DNA of 64,000 bases from an uncultured bacterium. GTDB taxonomy: Bacteria; Bipolaricaulota; Bipolaricaulia; UBA7950; UBA9294. The notes beneath the pieces were generated by a model. That model saw only the letters and a program-made list of their open reading frames with translations, made no database searches and was not told where the DNA came from. This document shows, piece after piece, positions 31,807-47,289 of the stretch (position 1 is its first letter; every line of letters starts with the position of its first letter). The stretch is from positions 186,001-250,000 of the forward strand of contig CAIOGO010000010.1 in the NCBI GenBank assembly GCA_903857865.1, given 5' to 3'. Made by a program: the position numbers and the translations under genes.

Positions 31807-33894
31807 CTAGAGCCTCACGAGGATATCTACGACCGCCGCGCCGTCCGCGTTGGCAATCACCGGATTGAGGTCAACTTCCGAGACCTCCGGCAGATCGACG
31901 GCGAGCTGGCTGAGAGCCGTCAGCAAGTCCACGAGAGACGACAGGGCGACGGCTCGTTCGCCGCGAAAGGCTTCGAGAAGGCGGAACGAGCGGATGGAGC
32001 GGATGGTTGCCGCGGCCTGATACGAACTGACGGGCGCGACGGCAAACGCCACATCGTGGAGCGCCTCGACGAGTGTCCCTCCGAGCCCGAACATCGCTAC
32101 GGGTCCGAAGGCCCGGTCTCGCTCGATCCCGTAGATCAGTTCGCGCCCCCGGCGCGTCTCTTGAAGCAGTGTGCGCGCCCCATCAAGACCGGAACGGCTG
32201 ACGACGCCACGCAAGCGTTCGATGGCAGCGCGCAGTTCCAGCTCACTGGTGATGCCCGTGATCACGGCACCATGCTCGAAACGGTGAGAGAGGGACGGAG
32301 AGTCGACCTTGGCCACGATCGGGTATCCCAACGCTCGGGCCGCCCGCGTCGCCTCGTCCGGAGTCTCGACGTAGCGAAACGCACAGACTGGAATCCCGTA
32401 CGCAGCCAAGACCTCCGCCCCCTCGTCGAAGAAGAGGCCGGAACGCCCCTCCGAAAGGACACGGCGCAGGACCTCGTGAGCGCGCAGACGATCGAACGAG
32501 CGGGGAGGTTCAGGAGCCTGCCAGCTCTCACGGATCCGCCGAGCACGGTCGAGCACCGCTAGGGCTTCCACCGCAGTCTCCGGCATGGCGTACACGGGCA
32601 GCTTGGCCGCCCTCAGTCGTTCGACGGCAGGCGTGGATTGCTCGCTGAGCGTGCAAACAAGGACGGGCTTGTCAGGAACCTGCGTGGCTGCTTCGACGAT
32701 GTGGTCAGCGACCGTCTCGGGGGCGTCCTTGAGGACGAGCGGAGGGCGGAAGATCACGATCGCAGCGTCCGCTTCGGCCAATCCAACGGCAAGCCCGCGC
32801 CCGTAGTCCGAGGCTCCGGCGGTCGCAATCATATCGATCGGGTTTCCCAATCCGGCTTCGGCGGGCAGGAACTCGGCGAGCTTCTGCTTCGCAGCATCGC
32901 CAAGCGCTGGTACGGCGATGCCCATTCGTTCGCAGGCGTCTGCCGCAATGATGCCTGCGCCGCCGGCGTTCGTCAGAATCGCAACACGGTTCCCGCGAGG
33001 CAGGACACCGCGTTCGATCGCGCGCAGCGCGGTCAGCGTCTCTTGGATCGTCGTCACGCGGAGTGCCCCGCACTGGTTCAAGAAGGCGTCGACGATCGCA
33101 TCCGGGCTGGCAAGGGACCCCGTGTGCGAGGCGACGGCCGCGGCTCCTGCCTCCGTTCGGCCAGCCTTGAGGACGACAACGGGCTTGTCCTTCGAGATCC
33201 GCTGGACGTACCGGCGGAATTCGATCGGGTCCGCGAAACTCTCCAGGTAGAGGAAGATCGCTGTGCAAGTCGGATCGGATTCGAGATGGGCGAGGAAGTC
33301 GTTCTCGGATAGGCCAGCGCGATTCCCGAGGTTGATGAACAGAGACACGCCGAGGTCGGCGTCCCCGAAACACTCGAGCAGAGTTTCGCCGAGGGAACCG
33401 CTCTGGGACACAAAGGCGATGCCGCCTCCCTGGGGAAACCAGCGAGAGAAGGAGGCGTTGAGACGGACGGACGGGGTGCTGTTGATGATCCCCATGCAAT
33501 TCGGGCCGACGACGTTGAGCGAGTTCTCTTCGATCAGGTCGCGCAGGGCGCGCTCCCTCTCCGCCCCTGCGCTGCTACTCTCTTTGAACCCAGCGGTGAT
33601 GACGACCAGGTTCCGAATGCCACGTCTGGCACAGTCTTCCACTCCGGCCAAGACAAGATCTCGATTGATGGCAAGGACCGCGAGGTCAACCCCGCTCGGC
33701 AGATCGGCGACGGAGGAAGAGCACGGCAGACCGTCCACGCGATCGTATTTGGGGTTGACGGGGAGGATCGTGCCGGGGAAGCCGCATCGCTGAAGGTTTC
33801 TCAGGATCTCGCCCCCCACGGATCCCGGCTTGGGGCTCGCACCGACGACGGCGACCGAGCGTGGCGCAAGAAGCTTCGCTAGACCCCTACGCAT
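31807..33894 (-). CDS. ADP-forming acetyl-CoA synthetase (fused alpha-beta)
   Basis: A 695-residue NDP-forming acyl-CoA synthetase that interconverts acyl-CoA, ADP and phosphate with acid, CoA and ATP, giving energy conservation in fermenting anaerobes. Order of domains: CoA-binding Rossmann fold (about 7-125, with V-A-V-V-G-A-S-P-K-P-G-S-V-G), succinyl-CoA ligase-like domains (to about 455), then an ATP-grasp domain (about 475-690). The phospho-histidine is His257 in A-S-H-T-G-S-L. It is encoded with a DUF5317 membrane protein and an HD-GYP protein upstream, overlapping the former by 8 nt. The AMP-forming enzyme at 1231-2856 works in the activating direction. Confidence 0.92.
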   Translation of the reverse strand: MRRGLAKLLAPRSVAVVGASPKPGSVGGEILRNLQRCGFPGTILPVNPKYDRVDGLPCSSSVADLPSGVDLAVLAINRDLVLAGVEDCARRGIRNLVVITAGFKESSSAGAERERALRDLIEENSLNVVGPNCMGIINSTPSVRLNASFSRWFPQGGGIAFVSQSGSLGETLLECFGDADLGVSLFINLGNRAGLSENDFLAHLESDPTCTAIFLYLESFADPIEFRRYVQRISKDKPVVVLKAGRTEAGAAAVASHTGSLASPDAIVDAFLNQCGALRVTTIQETLTALRAIERGVLPRGNRVAILTNAGGAGIIAADACERMGIAVPALGDAAKQKLAEFLPAEAGLGNPIDMIATAGASDYGRGLAVGLAEADAAIVIFRPPLVLKDAPETVADHIVEAATQVPDKPVLVCTLSEQSTPAVERLRAAKLPVYAMPETAVEALAVLDRARRIRESWQAPEPPRSFDRLRAHEVLRRVLSEGRSGLFFDEGAEVLAAYGIPVCAFRYVETPDEATRAARALGYPIVAKVDSPSLSHRFEHGAVITGITSELELRAAIERLRGVVSRSGLDGARTLLQETRRGRELIYGIERDRAFGPVAMFGLGGTLVEALHDVAFAVAPVSSYQAAATIRSIRSFRLLEAFRGERAVALSSLVDLLTALSQLAVDLPEVSEVDLNPVIANADGAAVVDILVRL

Positions 33895-34438
33895 TCGTGT
33901 TCATCCCCTTCGCGAGCAGCCAGACCAAGCCGATCAGGATCAGCACGTCGCCGACGCTCATTGCTGTCGCAAACGGAACTCCCCGAGGTATGCCAATCCA
34001 GTCTCCTAGGACGTTGAGACGCGTCGCCGCGCTCATGCCCACGAGGTTCCCGTAGGTTTCCCCCCGAGCGAGGAGCCTCGCGACGGAGATGAGACCGGCA
34101 CGCTCGAACGCCGCGGGGGAGGCCGGCATGTAGCCACCATTCAAGGCGACTACGAGAATGTTCAGAAGAGCCCCACCTCCGACTGCAATCAACGGCCGGG
34201 CTCGAACGTTGAGCAGGAGCCAGAGGAGGACGAGTCCGTAGGAGACGCCGTGCAGGACCGCGGTCCCGAACGGGATGATGGGATTCGGCGTGAACAGCGG
34301 GAAGATGAGGAACTGGATGCCGAGCGCAACGAGGACAAGCCACATTCCGCGCAGGCGGAGGAAGACGAGGCGGGACAGTCGGCCTCCCAGCATGTACCCC
34401 ACAGCGATCCCGATGACCACCGCGCAGAGGAAGATCAT
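33887..34438 (-). CDS. DUF5317 family membrane protein
   Basis: A 183-residue integral membrane protein with about five hydrophobic segments. The combination G-Y-M-L-G-G-R-L-S-R-L at the start, A-L-N-G-G-Y-M-P in the middle and the loop L-N-V-L-G-D-W-I-G-I-P before the last span is characteristic of DUF5317, a family of unknown function common in Firmicutes and other anaerobes, often near HD-GYP regulators. It overlaps HD-GYP by ATGA upstream and the acetyl-CoA synthetase by 8 nt downstream. Confidence 0.85.
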   Translation of the reverse strand: MIFLCAVVIGIAVGYMLGGRLSRLVFLRLRGMWLVLVALGIQFLIFPLFTPNPIIPFGTAVLHGVSYGLVLLWLLLNVRARPLIAVGGGALLNILVVALNGGYMPASPAAFERAGLISVARLLARGETYGNLVGMSAATRLNVLGDWIGIPRGVPFATAMSVGDVLILIGLVWLLAKGMNTNA

Positions 34439-35745
34439 GCGAGCGTTTCTGCGGCCGCCACCGGGCGGGCCTTCTCCCTGGCGCGCTCGCGCTGGATGAC
34501 CACAAGAAGCGCATCGGCAACCATCGGGTCGATGTCCGTTCCCCGCATCTCCCCGATCATCCGGATCGTCTCCTCGTAGGTGAAGGCCTTCCGATACGGT
34601 CGGTCGGTGGAGAGCGCATTGTAGATGTCGGCCGCAGCGATGACTCTGGAGAGGAGTGGAATCTGTTCCCCACGGAGCCCATCAGGGTACCCCGAGCCGT
34701 CCCAGCGCTCGTGCTCATGCCGTACGGCATCCGCGACGCTGGAGTAGATCTCAAGACCCTCGATGAGTTGCGCGCTCACCACCGGGTGGGTCTTCATGAC
34801 CTTCCACTCGGCGTCGTTAAGGGGGCCTGGTTTGAGGAGGATCGAGTCCGGGATCGCCACCTTCCCAATGTCGTGAACCCTGGCAGCGACGTCGATCTGC
34901 TCCAACACGCCCTGCGGCATGCCCATTTCCCTGCCGATCTCGAGCGCGAGGCTAGCCACCTCAGTCGAATGCACGGCAGTGTAGTGGTCACGCGTGTCCA
35001 GGAGCTGGGAGATCCTTTCGAACGTACTCCGCGCCTGCGTCTGAAGCTTGAGGTAGCTGCGAAAGGAGATGTGCACCAACGTCAGAGGGAAGAGGGCGAG
35101 GAGAATGTGCCAAACGGAGATGGAATGTAGCACGGCGAGGAGGATGGCGGAAATGCAGAGCACAGCGTACTGAACGAAGAACGCGCGCAGGTTCTCTCCG
35201 AGCAGATGCCAGAACTGCCGCCGCTGGGTGAGGGAGATGATGCACACGACGAGCGATACGTTGAGCAGGAAGTAGACGAGGAACGCGGCGGAGGCCCACA
35301 GGAAGTCGGTCGGCTGCTGCATGCCCAGCTGCGTGCGCTGGGCAAGGCGCATCACGAATCCGGCCGCCACCACCGCGACCATGGTCTGACTTACGTTGAA
35401 CGCGATCGGCGCTAAGGCCTTGGACAGGCTGTCGCGTCGGCTCCCCCACCGAAGGAGTAACTCGGACACCAACGACGAACCGCACACAACGATGAGCGCC
35501 AAGTCGGGACCCAGAATGAACAGGGCCGCAAGGTAGATGGCGATCGAGCTAGAGATCTCCCACTTGTAGGCAGGAATCCACGTTGCAGAAACCTCGGCCA
35601 AAATGGCGAGGACTGCAAAGGCGCAAGAGACAAGAAGATCCTCAGCTGAGGGATGCCGTGCCTGAGCCAGTGACCAGCCCAGCGCGACGAGAGCGAAGAG
35701 AGACAGGACTACGACAAGGACCGCTGCTCGGAATGGAAGTCGCAT
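34435..35745 (-). CDS. membrane HD-GYP domain phosphodiesterase
   Basis: A 436-residue protein with an N-terminal membrane domain of about seven to eight hydrophobic spans (about 5-225) and a C-terminal HD-GYP domain (about 240-425), as in c-di-GMP phosphodiesterases. Visible residues: H-S-T-E-V-A, A-R-V-H-D-I-G-K (HD metal pair), T-H-P-V-V-S-A-Q-L-I, H-E-H-E-R-W-D-G-S-G-Y-P-D-G-L and D-I-Y-N-A-L-S-T-D-R-P-Y-R. The actual GYP motif is present as G-Y-P. With the degenerate GGDEF protein it is the only sign of c-di-GMP signalling here. GAGGAGG precedes the ATG. Confidence 0.92.
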   Translation of the reverse strand: MRLPFRAAVLVVVLSLFALVALGWSLAQARHPSAEDLLVSCAFAVLAILAEVSATWIPAYKWEISSSIAIYLAALFILGPDLALIVVCGSSLVSELLLRWGSRRDSLSKALAPIAFNVSQTMVAVVAAGFVMRLAQRTQLGMQQPTDFLWASAAFLVYFLLNVSLVVCIISLTQRRQFWHLLGENLRAFFVQYAVLCISAILLAVLHSISVWHILLALFPLTLVHISFRSYLKLQTQARSTFERISQLLDTRDHYTAVHSTEVASLALEIGREMGMPQGVLEQIDVAARVHDIGKVAIPDSILLKPGPLNDAEWKVMKTHPVVSAQLIEGLEIYSSVADAVRHEHERWDGSGYPDGLRGEQIPLLSRVIAAADIYNALSTDRPYRKAFTYEETIRMIGEMRGTDIDPMVADALLVVIQRERAREKARPVAAAETLA

Positions 35746-35840: not shown

Positions 35841-35978
35841 CTAACCCGGCCGCCACTTCAGCGTCTCGCTCATCAGCAGCCCCGCTGCCGCAATCGTCAA
35901 CAGCACGTACAGCACCTTCCCACCAAACAGCTTCTTCATTTTCTTCTCTCCTTCGCGATTGAACCCACCCCACTTCAT
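35841..35978 (-). CDS. 45-residue membrane peptide, copy 1
   Basis: A tiny protein with a basic N-terminal part (MKWGGFNREGEKKMKK), one transmembrane segment (about residues 20-37, V-L-Y-V-L-L-T-I-A-A-A-G-L-L-M) and a short C-terminal tail, S-E-T-L-K-W-R-P-G. The predicted orientation is N-in. A GAGGAGGAGAG ribosome site precedes the ATG. It is identical in amino-acid sequence to copies 2 and 3. The layout recalls families of small hydrophobic peptides found in tandem (type I toxins such as Ldr or Ibs, or small respiratory or transport subunits), but the sequence is unfamiliar. It is the last gene of the array, with 95 bp before the HD-GYP gene. Confidence 0.85.
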   Translation of the reverse strand: MKWGGFNREGEKKMKKLFGGKVLYVLLTIAAAGLLMSETLKWRPG

Positions 35979-36005
35979 GGCTCTCTCCTCCTCATCGTCC
36001 TTCGA

Positions 36006-36143
36006 CTAGCCCGGCCGCCACTTCAGCGTCTCGCTCATCAACAAACCGGCCGCCGCAATCGTCAACAGCACGTACAGCACCTTTCCGCCAAACAGCTTCT
36101 TCATTTTCTTCTCTCCTTCGCGATTGAACCCACCCCACTTCAT
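36006..36143 (-). CDS. 45-residue membrane peptide, copy 2
   Basis: Same 45-residue product as copies 1 and 3, encoded with 8 or 9 synonymous base differences, mostly in the leucine-glycine-alanine stretch of the membrane segment (36040-36055). A GGAGGAGAA ribosome site precedes the ATG at 36143. Gaps on both sides are 27 nt. Selection on the peptide rather than on the DNA is the simplest explanation of the synonymous-only pattern; gene conversion would instead have homogenised the bases. Confidence 0.85.
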   Translation of the reverse strand: MKWGGFNREGEKKMKKLFGGKVLYVLLTIAAAGLLMSETLKWRPG

Positions 36144-36170
36144 GGTCTTCTCCTCCTCAATGTCCCTCGA

Positions 36171-36308
36171 CTAGCCCGGCCGCCACTTCAGCGTCTCGCT
36201 CATCAGCAGCCCCGCTGCCGCAATCGTCAACAGCACGTACAGCACTTTCCCACCAAACAGCTTCTTCATTTTCTTCTCTCCTTCGCGATTGAACCCGCCC
36301 CACTTCAT
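36171..36308 (-). CDS. 45-residue membrane peptide, copy 3 (promoter-proximal)
   Basis: First gene of the array; the product is identical to the others. The promoter lies 65-93 bp upstream of the ATG, and its transcript would start near 36366 with a GC-rich hairpin at its 5' end. The in-frame reading could extend upstream to 36416, but that would cross the promoter and hairpin, so the conserved ATG at 36308 with its GGAGGAGA site is used. No antisense gene is obvious on the other strand. Confidence 0.85.
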   Translation of the reverse strand: MKWGGFNREGEKKMKKLFGGKVLYVLLTIAAAGLLMSETLKWRPG

Positions 36309-36344
36309 GGCTCTCTCCTCCTTCTCGGATCCGTCTCGATGGCA

Positions 36345-36362
36345 CAGCCGGACCTCCGGCTG
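36345..36362 (-). promoter_or_regulatory. 5' hairpin of the membrane-peptide mRNA
   Basis: A perfect 7-bp GC-rich stem with a 4-nt loop (CAGCCGG and CCGGCTG arms; on the minus strand the loop is AGGT), beginning about 4 nt after the predicted transcription start. No U tract follows, so it is not a terminator. It could protect the 5' end or control translation, as in type I toxin mRNAs. Confidence 0.45.
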
Positions 36363-36372
36363 ACCCGCGTCG

Positions 36373-36401
36373 AGAATACCCAGCCATGTTTCTTCCGTCA
36401 A
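36373..36401 (-). promoter_or_regulatory. promoter of the membrane-peptide array
   Basis: Minus-strand TTGACG (36396-36401), 17-nt spacer, TATTCT (36373-36378). Five of six and four of six consensus bases match with ideal spacing. The leader to the first ATG is about 58 nt. Confidence 0.6.
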
Positions 36402-37753: not shown

Positions 37754-38872
37754 ATGAGACGAGTTGCAGGCCTCATCTTCCATGCGCCTCTCGGAGAGAG
37801 CCGCGGGGAACGCCTCGTCGAAGAAGGGCGATGGGCGGCGGCCCTCGGTCTCGCGAGACGCCTGCGCGCGGCCGGCGTGGGAGAAGTCTATGCTGTGACC
37901 CCAAGCGCCGGCAGATGCCCCGGCGGGGAAGGCATCGTCGAGTTCATCCTCTCCGAAGCCTCGGACTTCCACTTCGGCAAGGTCTTCGCGCGTCAGATCG
38001 CCCGCCTCGAACTCGACGGAGTCCTCTACTTCGGAAGCGGAGCCGGAGGGCTCTTGGCGGAGGACGACCTCGCTCGTCTCATCGAATTCGCGGGGAAAGA
38101 GACGTCGCGGGCGTTGTTCAACAACTTCTACTCGTGCGACTTCTGCTCGGTCTCGGGCGCGCGGCGACTGCTCGACGTTGACCTCCCGGCAATCGACAAC
38201 TCGTTGGGATTCGTCCTGTCGGATGCTGGGATTCCCTGCTTCTCCCTCGCGCGAACTGCGGCGACCCAGTTCGACATCGACACTCCGACCGACCTCCTTC
38301 TCCTCGCGCGCAGCGGCTCAGGGAACCCCGAACTACGCGCATTCTGCACCACCATCCATCCATCCCATCCAACCCTCGACCGCGCCCTCGCGACCCTCAC
38401 CGATCGTTCCGCGGTGACGTGTCTCGTCGGACGGGTGAGCCCGGTCACCTGGGCTCAGTTCGAGTCGCAGGTAGCCTGTCGAACGAGCGCGCTCGTCGAG
38501 GGACGAGGAATGCGCGCCGGAGCCTCCGCGCACGTGCCGTGGCTGCGCCAGTCCCTGATGGACGACGGCCCCGAGGCGTTCTTCGCTCGACTTGCCCAGG
38601 CCTGCGATGCGGCGTGGATCGACACGCGACCGCTTCTCGCCGCGCCGGACTCGTTTCCTCCCGCGGCGGTCCGCTTCGCCAGCGATCTCTTCCACTCTGA
38701 CGACGTCCTCGATCCTGCGTGGCGAGCATTCACGGACGCCGCACTGGGCTCCTCGATCCCCGTCGTGCTCGGCGGGCACAGCCTGGTGAGCGGTGGGCTC
38801 TACCTCGCCGCAGAAGCGTGCTGGAAAGGAAGAAACCTACTCCGTAGACTTCACCCGGAACCCTTCGCGTGA
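37754..38872 (+). CDS. conserved unknown, N-terminal half MobA/CofC-like
   Basis: A 372-residue soluble protein. The first 190 residues have a Rossmann-type pattern reminiscent of MobA- or CofC-like nucleotidyltransferases: GLARRLRAAGVGEVYAV, V-L-Y-F-G-S-G-A-G-G-L-L-A, and F-D-I-D-T-P-T-D-L-L-L-L-A near residue 180. The last corresponds to the F-D-I-D-T-P-x-D-L seen near the end of those enzymes. The remaining half has no recognised domain. The stop codon overlaps a possible GTG of the SHMT-GcvT fusion, whose better ATG lies 15 nt further, so the two are probably an operon. A role in folate or cofactor chemistry is possible but unproven. Confidence 0.6.
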   Translation: MRRVAGLIFHAPLGESRGERLVEEGRWAAALGLARRLRAAGVGEVYAVTPSAGRCPGGEGIVEFILSEASDFHFGKVFARQIARLELDGVLYFGSGAGGLLAEDDLARLIEFAGKETSRALFNNFYSCDFCSVSGARRLLDVDLPAIDNSLGFVLSDAGIPCFSLARTAATQFDIDTPTDLLLLARSGSGNPELRAFCTTIHPSHPTLDRALATLTDRSAVTCLVGRVSPVTWAQFESQVACRTSALVEGRGMRAGASAHVPWLRQSLMDDGPEAFFARLAQACDAAWIDTRPLLAAPDSFPPAAVRFASDLFHSDDVLDPAWRAFTDAALGSSIPVVLGGHSLVSGGLYLAAEACWKGRNLLRRLHPEPFA

Positions 38873-38886
38873 GAAAAGGAGCGATC

Positions 38887-41800
38887 ATGAGTTACGGACG
38901 TTCTCCCCTGCATGTGCTCGATGTCGACGCACAGACGGCCGCCCTGATTGCCGCCGAGGAGCGCCGCCAGCGGGAGAAGATCATTCTCATTCCCTCGGAG
39001 AGCCTGACGCCGCTTCCCGTACGAGAAGCTTTGGGATCGGCGTTCACCAGCGTCTACGCCGAGGGCTACCCACGCAAGGCGATGATGCGGCAGACCCAAG
39101 ATGAGCTCGCCGACATCGATGTGCAGCTGGCAAGCTACCGGCGCTATGCGGATCGCCGATTCTACAAGGGAACGGAGATGGCCGACCTCGTGGAGTCGCT
39201 CGCCGCGCGACGCGCCGCGGAGTGCTTCGCCACGGCGGAGTATCCGGCGGATCGCATTTTCGCCAACGTCCAGCCGCTCTCCGGAGCCGCTGCGAACCTT
39301 GCCGTCTACGATGCCTTCGTCAAGCCCGGCGAGACCGTCATGGGCATGGCGCTCACCGAGGGCGGACACCTCACGCACGGGTCGGAGTTCAATGTGACCG
39401 GCCGGAGATACCGGATCGTCTCCTACGCGATCGATCGCGGCACGGGCAAGCTCGACTATGAGGGAATCCTCGCCCTCGCCTTGGAGCATCGCCCGCGCAT
39501 GATCATCGGCGGATTCACCACCTACCCCTGGCAGCCGGACTGGGCAAGATTCCGAGAGATTGCAGATGCTGTCGGCGCCATTCTCCTCGCCGACGTTGCG
39601 CACACGGCCGGGTTGATCGTCGGAAAGGTCTACCCGAACCCGATCGGACACGCGCACGTGGTGTCCTTCACGACGCACAAGACCCTATGCGGCGGCCGCG
39701 GCGCCGTCATTCTGTCGACCGACCCCCAGATCGCCTCGCGTATCGACACGGCCGTGTTCCCTGGCCAGCAGGGCGGGCCGCACGTGAACAAATTCGCCGC
39801 CCTAGCGGTCACGCTCAAGTTGGCACAAGAGCCAGCCTTCGCAGCTCTGCAACGCCGCATCGTCGAAAACGCACAGCACCTTGCGCGCGCGCTCGCGGAG
39901 AACGGCCTCACGATGGCCTACGGCGGCACCGACACCCACCTCCTGCTCGTCGACCTGCGGGAGATCAAGACGAACACAGGATTCGTCATGATGGGGGAGA
40001 TCGCGTCCCGTATCCTCGACCTCGCCGGGCTCGTCTGCAACAAGAACACGCTCCCCGGCGATCGGAGTGCTGCGGACGCCCACGGCATCCGACTCGGCAC
40101 ACCGTGGGCGACCCAGCGTGGCATGGGCAAGGTGGAGATGGAGGCCATCGGGCGCATCGTCGCCGAGGTGCTGTTGTCGATTCGCCCATTCTCGTACCAA
40201 GGACTACGCGGCGAGTTGTCGCGCGGCAAGCTGCCGCTCAAGGTGCTCGATCGGGCGAAGCAAGAGGTGCGGGAGATCGTAGCGCACATCGAACCGAGAG
40301 TCGGCGGTCGGACGGAGGAAGAGCGCCGACGCGCTGGTGCATCGCAGTGGACTGTCCTGCGAGTGCGCAGCGGCCGGGCAGGCGCGCTGCTCCAGGAGGC
40401 GACGACAAGTGACATTCGCCAGCTTGCCGCGTCGACATCGTGTTCGACGTATCTGATCGACGAGCAGGGGTGTGCAATTTCCTCCGCCATCGTTGGGTGT
40501 CTCGGCCGGGACGACTATGTTGTGCTCGTTCCCCCCGACTGCGCTCGCGAGGTTCACTCGTGGCTGGAGGGGCTGGCTGAAGGGTACACCTTGTTCGATT
40601 CCGGCGACTTGTTCCGCAAGATCCAGGGGCCAGCGCTCATCGAGGAGACGGACGACTCCGCCCTACCGCTGGCCGTACGGTCGTGGCTCGCGCTGCCGAT
40701 AGAAGAGAGCGTCGCGGGCCAGACCGTCACGAGAATCGCCGCGGAGAATCCCCGGAGGTTCGCGCTCGACAAGCCGTACTTCGTCGGCCAGCGATTCCTC
40801 GATCTTCAGGGAAGTCAGGCCGCGCCCCCGGCGTTCTCGTGGACCGAAGAGGGGCAAAGGAATCCGCGCACGACGGCGCTCCACGAATCGCATGTCGCGC
40901 TGGGAGCGAGGCTCGTTCCCTTCGCCGGGTGGGAGATGCCGGTCTGGTACACGTCGGCCCTCGAGGAGCACCGCACCGTGCGCCGTGCAGCAGGCCTGTT
41001 CGACCTTGGCCACATGGGAGTGTTCCAGGTCGAGGGCGAGCGCGCGACCGAGTTCCTCGATGCTGTGACATCGAACTACGAAGGCTGGCTCGAGGACGGA
41101 CAGTCGCACTACGCCTACTTGTTGGGGCCTGACGGAAAGGCCATCGACGACATCTGGGTGTACCGGCGGGCGTGGAATCGTTACCTCGTCGTTGTCAACG
41201 CGGCGAACGAGCAGAAAGATTGGGCCTGGCTGACTGGCGTCAATGAAGGGCGGTACGCCGTCGATTCGGACCATCCAGCATGCCGCCTGGCTCCCGGCGT
41301 CGTGCTGCGGGACCTGAAGCGAGAGCGAGGCGTGATGGACATCGCTCTTCAAGGTCCGAAGAGCTACACCGTACTGAAGGAGATCCTCGGCCCCGGCGAA
41401 CGCCGGCTCGTGGCTGCACTTGAGAGGACGGAGTTCGTCGAGGTCGCCGCAGACGGCCACCAACTCCTCGTAGCACGCACGGGGTACACGGGCGAGCCGT
41501 TGGGATACGAGATCTACTCCGCGGCAGCCGACGCGCTGTGGCTGTGGAACCGCCTGCTCGATCTCGGCCGACCGCTCGGCCTTCTTCCGTGCGGACTCGC
41601 GTCGCGCGACTCGACGCGGACGGAGGCGGGCCTGCCCCTCTACGGGCACGAACTGGCCGGACCTCGTGACGTCAACCCGTTCGAGGCCGGATTCGGGCCG
41701 TACGTCAAGCTGCACAAGGCCTTCTTCGTTGGCCGCGCGGCGTGCATCAACTACTACCTCGAACAGAAACGGGAGATCGTACGGTTCGAGGTGGAAGTCG

Positions 41801-42084
41801 GATCACGCCCCGTTCGCGAGGGTGCCCTCGTCCTCGACCGGAACGGAACGGTGCTCGGGCACGTGACGAGCTGTGTCAGTCTTGGCGAAGCGCAAATAGG
41901 GCTCGCCCTGCTCGAACGGCGAGGACTCGATGCGGACACACCTGTCTTGCTCGTCCCCACGCCACGCCCCGACTCCTCGCCGGAGACGGCGGATGTCGGA
42001 GCACGCCTTCCGGTGGCCAGCCCGGGACGAATCGTCTCGCGCTTCCTGGCGAGAGACCTCCCGCCGGAGAGCGAAGCAGAATAG
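38887..42084 (+). CDS. serine hydroxymethyltransferase - YgfZ-like - aminomethyltransferase (GcvT) fusion
   Basis: A 1065-residue fusion. Residues about 1-470 are serine hydroxymethyltransferase, which interconverts serine and glycine with tetrahydrofolate; the PLP lysine is Lys265 in S-F-T-T-H-K-T-L-C-G-G-R-G. Residues about 488-650 resemble a shortened YgfZ/GcvT-like folate-binding domain (VLRVRSGRAGALLQEATTSD, C-L-G-R-D-D-Y-V-V-L-V-P). Residues about 659-1065 are GcvT, the tetrahydrofolate-dependent T-protein of the glycine cleavage system (H-V-A-L-G-A-R-L-V-P-F-A-G-W-E-M-P, D-L-G-H-M-G, E-A-G-L-P-L-Y-G-H-E-L). ATG at 38887 has AAGGAG 7 nt upstream. Proteins P, H and L are not in this window. 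Confidence 0.93.
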   Translation: MSYGRSPLHVLDVDAQTAALIAAEERRQREKIILIPSESLTPLPVREALGSAFTSVYAEGYPRKAMMRQTQDELADIDVQLASYRRYADRRFYKGTEMADLVESLAARRAAECFATAEYPADRIFANVQPLSGAAANLAVYDAFVKPGETVMGMALTEGGHLTHGSEFNVTGRRYRIVSYAIDRGTGKLDYEGILALALEHRPRMIIGGFTTYPWQPDWARFREIADAVGAILLADVAHTAGLIVGKVYPNPIGHAHVVSFTTHKTLCGGRGAVILSTDPQIASRIDTAVFPGQQGGPHVNKFAALAVTLKLAQEPAFAALQRRIVENAQHLARALAENGLTMAYGGTDTHLLLVDLREIKTNTGFVMMGEIASRILDLAGLVCNKNTLPGDRSAADAHGIRLGTPWATQRGMGKVEMEAIGRIVAEVLLSIRPFSYQGLRGELSRGKLPLKVLDRAKQEVREIVAHIEPRVGGRTEEERRRAGASQWTVLRVRSGRAGALLQEATTSDIRQLAASTSCSTYLIDEQGCAISSAIVGCLGRDDYVVLVPPDCAREVHSWLEGLAEGYTLFDSGDLFRKIQGPALIEETDDSALPLAVRSWLALPIEESVAGQTVTRIAAENPRRFALDKPYFVGQRFLDLQGSQAAPPAFSWTEEGQRNPRTTALHESHVALGARLVPFAGWEMPVWYTSALEEHRTVRRAAGLFDLGHMGVFQVEGERATEFLDAVTSNYEGWLEDGQSHYAYLLGPDGKAIDDIWVYRRAWNRYLVVVNAANEQKDWAWLTGVNEGRYAVDSDHPACRLAPGVVLRDLKRERGVMDIALQGPKSYTVLKEILGPGERRLVAALERTEFVEVAADGHQLLVARTGYTGEPLGYEIYSAAADALWLWNRLLDLGRPLGLLPCGLASRDSTRTEAGLPLYGHELAGPRDVNPFEAGFGPYVKLHKAFFVGRAACINYYLEQKREIVRFEVEVGSRPVREGALVLDRNGTVLGHVTSCVSLGEAQIGLALLERRGLDADTPVLLVPTPRPDSSPETADVGARLPVASPGRIVSRFLARDLPPESEAE

Positions 42085-47070: not shown

Positions 47071-47289
47071 GTGAGCAAGATCGTGTGTCCTGTGTGTGAC
47101 GCGGCGCTCGATCTCGACAAGGACGAGCTCGGTCTGTTCAACCGCCTGCGCTGCGAGGAATGCGAGGCGCTGCTCGAGGTTGTCGAGGAGGACCCGATCC
47201 GCCTGGAGTGGATTGAGGAAGAGGACGACTTCGAGGAAGACGAGGAGCTCGACGCTGAGGAGGAGGAAGAGGACGACGACTACGCCTAG
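47071..47289 (+). CDS. LysW-like zinc-ribbon amino-group carrier protein
   Basis: A 72-residue very acidic protein with an N-terminal zinc ribbon (C-P-V-C, then C-E-E-C) and a long acidic tail. This matches LysW, the carrier that holds the amino group of lysine or arginine precursors through a C-terminal glutamate. Here the tail ends in E-D-D-D-Y-A, without the E-D-W-G-E motif used in lysine biosynthesis. It may therefore be a carrier for another pathway or a remnant. GTG at 47071 has AAGGAGG 5 nt upstream. A 12-bp hairpin follows. LysX and LysZ are not in this window. Confidence 0.75.
   Translation: MSKIVCPVCDAALDLDKDELGLFNRLRCEECEALLEVVEEDPIRLEWIEEEDDFEEDEELDAEEEEEDDDYA

Follow-up and report, generated by a model that had tools for sequence, protein, structure and literature searches.

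Introduction

The ECF transporters for nickel and cobalt include the S-components NikM and CbiM, which act with small membrane partners, NikN and CbiN. ECF S-components bind small molecules, and CbiN, which has two helices, serves transport. Small single-span membrane proteins also act on signalling proteins: MgrB, SafA and UgtS regulate the sensor kinase PhoQ, and MgrB, with 47 amino acids, exerts its effect on this membrane sensor via its helix (PMC8404706, PMC10576120).

Here we describe a peptide that is encoded three times in tandem in the window, by which we mean the whole 64,000-nucleotide stretch of Bipolaricaulota DNA that was analysed, and we conclude that this array is the founding member of an unannotated and widely conserved family of small membrane proteins tied to a membrane-bound HD-GYP enzyme. 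The peptide resembles MgrB, SafA and UgtS in being small, in having one helix preceded by lysines, in its conserved tryptophans and in the proposed tuning of a much larger membrane sensor, and MgrB is the best studied precedent for the mode of action proposed for it. It differs from these regulators in that its partner is a phosphodiesterase to which its gene is linked across phyla and in that it occurs in tandem copies, and no sequence relationship to them is claimed. As with NikN and CbiN, a small membrane protein is encoded beside an S-component-like domain, in this case that of the enzyme, which matches NikM best; unlike CbiN, however, the peptide has one helix. Its assignment as an ECF accessory protein of the NikN/CbiN kind was rejected on account of the single helix and because no ECF transporter domains were seen among the annotated neighbours of the peptide loci. 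The partner enzyme belongs to the MASE9 HD-GYP phosphodiesterases (PF20972 and PF13487), with a MASE9 assignment that is marginal in the window and above the cut-off in relatives. A literature search, which reached few subscription papers, returned nothing on the peptide, DUF5317 or MASE9.

The Peptide Array and Its Surrounding Signals

The features of the locus are summarised in Table 1. All three open reading frames encode the same protein, MKWGGFNREGEKKMKKLFGGKVLYVLLTIAAAGLLMSETLKWRPG, in 45 codons each and in exact 165-bp units, as the initial annotation had stated, and a hydropathy scan together with the alignment yielded one hydrophobic stretch, corresponding to one predicted membrane helix. 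The coding parts differ pairwise at 3, 8 and 9 positions and, again as originally claimed, all of these differences are synonymous; they fall in 10 variable columns, and the probability of 10 out of 10 being synonymous by chance is about 1e-6. Counting the run of five neighbouring changes in codons 31–35 as a single conversion event raises it to about 3e-4. The 27-bp spacers, with six variable sites, are more variable than the coding part. The reading frame of copy 1 also remains open further upstream and, when read from 36416, comprises 81 codons. In each copy the internal Met14 codon follows a Shine-Dalgarno-like AAGGAG, such that a 32-residue short form is possible; this internal start was rejected on the basis of the alignment, where Met14 is not conserved across the phylum. 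No further copies of the peptide were found elsewhere in the genome (2.24 Mb in 22 contigs).

Table 1. Coordinates of the peptide array, its putative expression signals and the genes downstream of it, in window positions.
Feature	Positions	Strand	Remarks
Promoter-like site TTGACG-17-TATTCT, sigma-70-like	36373..36401	-	consensus match only
Ribosome-binding region of copy 1, AAGGAGGAGAGAGCC	36309..36323	-	read from sequence
Peptide gene copy 1, first in operon	36171..36308	-	45 aa; stop included
Ribosome-binding region of copy 2, GAGGAGGAGAAGACC	36144..36158	-	read from sequence
Peptide gene copy 2, identical protein	36006..36143	-	45 aa; stop included
Ribosome-binding region of copy 3, GAGGAGGAGAGAGCC	35979..35993	-	read from sequence
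Peptide gene copy 3, identical protein	35841..35978	-	45 aa; stop included
Partner enzyme: N-terminal MASE9-like membrane domain and HD_5/HD-GYP phosphodiesterase domain	34435..35745	-	436 aa
DUF5317 membrane protein, usual third gene	33887..34438	-	183 aa
ADP-forming acyl-CoA synthetase, overlapping fourth gene	31807..33894	-	

Each unit is preceded by a ribosome site of the GGAGGAG type, in agreement with the original proposal that every unit carries its own. It had also been proposed that one promoter drives all of the units, and here the promoter-like site itself is present, with 9 of 12 consensus matches where 0.2 such sites would be expected, while its driving of all three units from a single upstream position is plausible. 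The opposite strand yielded no promoter-like site between 35700 and 36620. Rfam yielded no match anywhere in the window and has no entry covering the peptide, and the array shows no RNA structure beyond chance, with a folding z-score of -0.33 relative to shuffled sequence.

Comparisons between species extend the evidence from the array. Between congeners dS values are about 0.5–1.5 and dN values about 0.02–0.12, and the dN/dS ratio for the peptide, a measure that the initial annotation had called for, is about 0.04–0.2. The peptide gene is therefore real and under purifying selection, and the inferences of strong selection at the protein level and against a neutral repeat, both drawn originally from the array, are upheld by the synonymous-only changes within it and by dN lying far below dS between species. 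Within a genome the copies resemble one another (dS 0.10–0.37) more closely than they resemble those of other species and the arrays thus evolve in concert, such that the similarity within an array is partly due to concerted evolution.

Distribution of the Peptide Family

Iterated profile searches recovered homologues across the Bipolaricaulota. A search of related genomes with a count of copies had been suggested at the outset, and it produced a peptide match in 70 of the 100 Bipolaricaulota genomes searched, and in 32 of the 38 that are at least 90% complete. A narrower peptide alignment, used as query on genome contigs, gave nine loci. In the Bipolaricaulota alignment W3 and the C-terminal K41-W42 (numbered as in the window peptide) are fixed and the N-terminal MKW is likewise conserved. 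The initial annotation recognised no family for the peptide, and this still stands, since neither the window peptide nor representatives of the other groups gave a match over the cut-off in Pfam, NCBIfam, PHROGs or PADLOC. A viral or defence origin was rejected given the lack of PHROGs and PADLOC matches.

Beyond the Bipolaricaulota, the peptide lies upstream of the HD-GYP enzyme in at least four phyla. Three of the four other phyla that carry DUF5317 were followed for the peptide and the peptide-enzyme arrangement was present in all three; two of these we take to be, probably, Thermales and Caldisericota and the third may, at a guess, be Atribacterota. In these three phyla the peptide that stands directly before the enzyme has 25–35 residues and contains lysines, a hydrophobic stretch and a small-residue motif as well as a terminal tryptophan, and in a further phylum (genome G483, locus L240) MKAKVLKALFVLASLLLAGGAHFRW precedes a MASE9-HD-GYP protein. 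Across the groups the peptide has a start rich in lysine followed by a hydrophobic stretch, and it carries a small-residue motif, typically GA, together with the terminal tryptophan. On sequence alone, the first matches outside the phylum are weak (E 4e-6 to 2e-2) and the case for homology across phyla therefore leans on position.

Peptide copies multiply in several lineages. Arrays reach five copies in the Bipolaricaulota, and a complete genome, presumably that of Caldisericum exile, carries six nucleotide-identical peptide genes at 104-bp spacing (locus L214, 1905–2510), an array that reflects either a recent expansion or continuing homogenisation of its copies. In the search of the 100 Bipolaricaulota genomes, some 25 of the peptide matches were no more than 100 bp from the end of a contig, and in several genomes, including G001, G003, G004, G007, G020 and G031, matches occur on both broken contig ends, such that copy numbers from draft genomes are minimum values.

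Linkage to the HD-GYP Enzyme

At almost all loci an HD-GYP membrane protein is encoded directly behind the peptide gene or genes and on the same strand, and the operon order is one to six peptide copies, then the MASE9-like membrane HD-GYP phosphodiesterase and then, usually, DUF5317. The strictness of this link was assessed with a fixed rule that demanded 20–60 codons, strong hydrophobicity, a tryptophan within the last seven residues and a position no more than 560 bp upstream. A peptide satisfying the rule was found upstream of 94 of 111 related HD-GYP loci as compared with 26 of 1063 control ORFs, the controls being the upstream regions of other long ORFs in the same loci; since the 111 loci are related by descent, these counts show consistency rather than independent events. 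Among the 17 loci that did not score, eight have no room on the contig and nine proved on inspection to carry a peptide. In these nine the tryptophan lies further from the end (L038) or is replaced by F, Y or K (L172, L173 and L148), the enzyme start is misplaced (L182 and L186), the copy is about 1 kb away (L160) or below the limits of the rule (L040), or the copies are cut or degenerate at a contig end (L043). The gap between peptide and enzyme has a median of about 80 bp and ranges from overlap to several hundred bases, apart from the roughly 1 kb in L160.

The peptide gene is thus linked to this enzyme, and attachment to DUF5317 instead was rejected: seven enzyme loci without DUF5317 within 3 kb still carry the peptide, whereas none was present at the expected place in eight loci with DUF5317 only, one of which (L211) has a single unrelated candidate 1.5 kb away. 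The fold of the enzyme does not by itself call for the peptide, since two MASE9-HD-GYP proteins from other phyla (L235 and L241) have no upstream peptide, and only a subset of MASE9-HD-GYP enzymes has one. The genome under study encodes nine HD_5 proteins and carries peptide copies at one of them only.

The Partner Enzyme

The HD_5 match of the window enzyme is well above the Pfam cut-off (PF13487, E 1.8e-37). Its MASE9 score (PF20972) is 22.3 bits against a cut-off of 24.3, or 24.5 in frame context, and the relatives at L131, L133 and L130 exceed the cut-off. Catalytic residues are retained, with H259, H291, D292, K295, H320, H345 and D373 invariant in 74 orthologues. The nearest solved protein, by both sequence and fold, is the c-di-GMP HD-GYP phosphodiesterase 4mcw, and the enzyme would, judging from its sequence, hydrolyse c-di-GMP or a similar cyclic dinucleotide. 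In the window enzyme, E344 takes the place of the first histidine of the HHE motif. At two of the metal-ligand positions of 4mcw, E185 and H276, the enzyme has Y and E, and a two-metal site is therefore likelier, and a three-metal site as in 4mcw unlikely. Nine GGDEF matches were found in the same genome.

The AlphaFold2 model of the enzyme has a mean pLDDT of 93.5, and in this predicted fold the membrane part, residues 3–213, aligns with ECF transporter S-components. The best match is NikM (4m5b; Z 15.4, rmsd 3.4 over 191 residues), and the BioY, RibU, FolT and ThiT families give Z values of about 12–14. The modelled S-component-like fold suggests that the MASE9-like domain may be a small-molecule sensor, although a shared fold is no proof of shared function. 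A plasmid search with the Thermus-type enzyme gave partial matches only, mostly to the HD domain.

DUF5317 and Other Neighbours

DUF5317 occurs in 82 of the 100 Bipolaricaulota genomes and in only four among about 140 genomes from other phyla, and it may be the third component of the module. Its invariant polar residues are N93, N100, D146, S161 and D164. It was modelled confidently (pLDDT 90.7) and no credible match to its fold was found in the PDB, which does not imply a new fold. The acyl-CoA synthetase gene marks the end of the operon in this family of Bipolaricaulota and lies outside the core module.

Some loci depart from this order. At L169, in a genome that is probably, we assume, that of Marinithermus, DUF5317 is kept and both the HD-GYP enzyme and the peptide are absent, and at three Bipolaricaulota loci (L057, L061 and L064) an MFS transporter and then a CsgG-like protein follow the enzyme and replace DUF5317. 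Elsewhere in the window, a 1071-codon ORF at 38869–42084 on the forward strand encodes GlyA (serine hydroxymethyltransferase) and GcvT (glycine cleavage T-protein) joined in a single frame, with relatives in 14 of the collected loci, and a degenerate 24-bp tandem repeat at 47215–47278 is probably an acidic glutamate/aspartate-rich coding repeat.

Proposed Function and Alternative Explanations

The locus is best explained by the downstream partner, which the initial annotation had overlooked. We consider it probable that the peptide is a small single-pass membrane protein that acts in trans on the membrane phosphodiesterase encoded downstream, either as its subunit or as its regulator. We infer a physical interaction between peptide and enzyme, as well as the topology, the mode of binding, the direction of regulation, the ligand and the role of dosage. 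The lysine-rich N-terminus would lie inside and the short tryptophan-containing tail at the outer membrane face, with the helix packing against the ECF S-component-like membrane domain of the enzyme. The contact between peptide and enzyme could then change when a small molecule binds, or with the state of the membrane, and thereby switch the cytoplasmic HD-GYP domain, which would hydrolyse c-di-GMP or a similar cyclic dinucleotide, such that the peptide would tune its breakdown as activator or inhibitor. Tandem copies would raise the amount of peptide relative to the single enzyme gene, and probably set its dosage.

A more far-reaching version, which we advance tentatively and regard as doubtful, makes the peptide a gating subunit that is required, and tuned by dosage, in a sensory phosphodiesterase of a new kind. 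The ECF S-component-like domain would sense a small molecule and the peptide would load or lock that domain in the way that CbiN acts beside CbiM, and peptide, enzyme and DUF5317 would be the three parts of an ancient module for membrane signalling in thermophilic and deep-branching bacteria.

Among the alternatives, it is unlikely, if the least so, that the peptide is the precursor of a signal that is exported or shed from the membrane, its tryptophan tail being released and the phosphodiesterase serving as receptor, with the copies raising output. The multiple identical copies and the signal-peptide-like hydrophobic stretch are compatible with such a role, as is the location of the most conserved residues, the small-residue motif followed by W, at the very C-terminus. 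However, the tail beyond the hydrophobic stretch comprises only about 3–8 residues, no consistent AxA-type cleavage site is present across the groups, no recurrent protease or exporter lies beside the peptide in the examined loci, and the conservation of the N-terminal MKW in the Bipolaricaulota would be needless for a released C-terminal signal.

A cis-acting leader or arrest peptide, which by being translated or inserted into the membrane would control the expression of the enzyme gene as MifM controls that of yidC2, is a rather unlikely alternative. The conserved operon position directly upstream at a short median gap, the hydrophobic nascent chain and the conserved tryptophan near the stop codon fit this explanation, and yet what was found is not a single copy at a constrained distance but one to six copies at variable gaps. 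Complete extra copies, up to six and each with its own start, would be useless upstream for a stall in cis, and they render a cis leader less likely together with the variable gaps, while the RNA folds no better than shuffled sequence.

It is common for small membrane proteins to act alone, and linkage could mean shared regulation only, such that the peptide might have a function of its own, for example in membrane stress, and merely be co-transcribed with the enzyme. We judge this improbable given that the linkage persists from phylum to phylum while the remaining neighbours vary and that the genome under study has no unlinked copy.

The parallel originally drawn with type I toxins of the Ldr and Ibs kind, silenced by an antisense RNA, receives little credence here. 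The size, hydrophobicity and tandem arrangement of the peptides do resemble Ldr and Ibs, but the peptide differs from these toxins in having a fixed enzyme partner, with one conserved operon position before it across phyla, and there is neither an Rfam antisense match in the window nor a promoter-like site on the antisense strand. A structured RNA or neutral repeat in place of a coding gene, which the GC-rich tandem repeat might have suggested, can be practically discounted in view of the coding constraint and the folding score given above.

Implications

If the proposed regulation of the phosphodiesterase by the peptide is correct, an entire family of conserved small membrane proteins has so far gone unnoticed, because their genes span only 25–50 codons and because short-read assemblies break at tandem copies that are nearly identical. 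HD-GYP phosphodiesterases would thereby gain regulators in the form of small proteins, and there would be a way to test what MASE9 domains sense. The module is apparently present in Thermus and Meiothermus, where genetics is possible, and a question arising from an uncultured phylum may therefore be testable in a laboratory organism.
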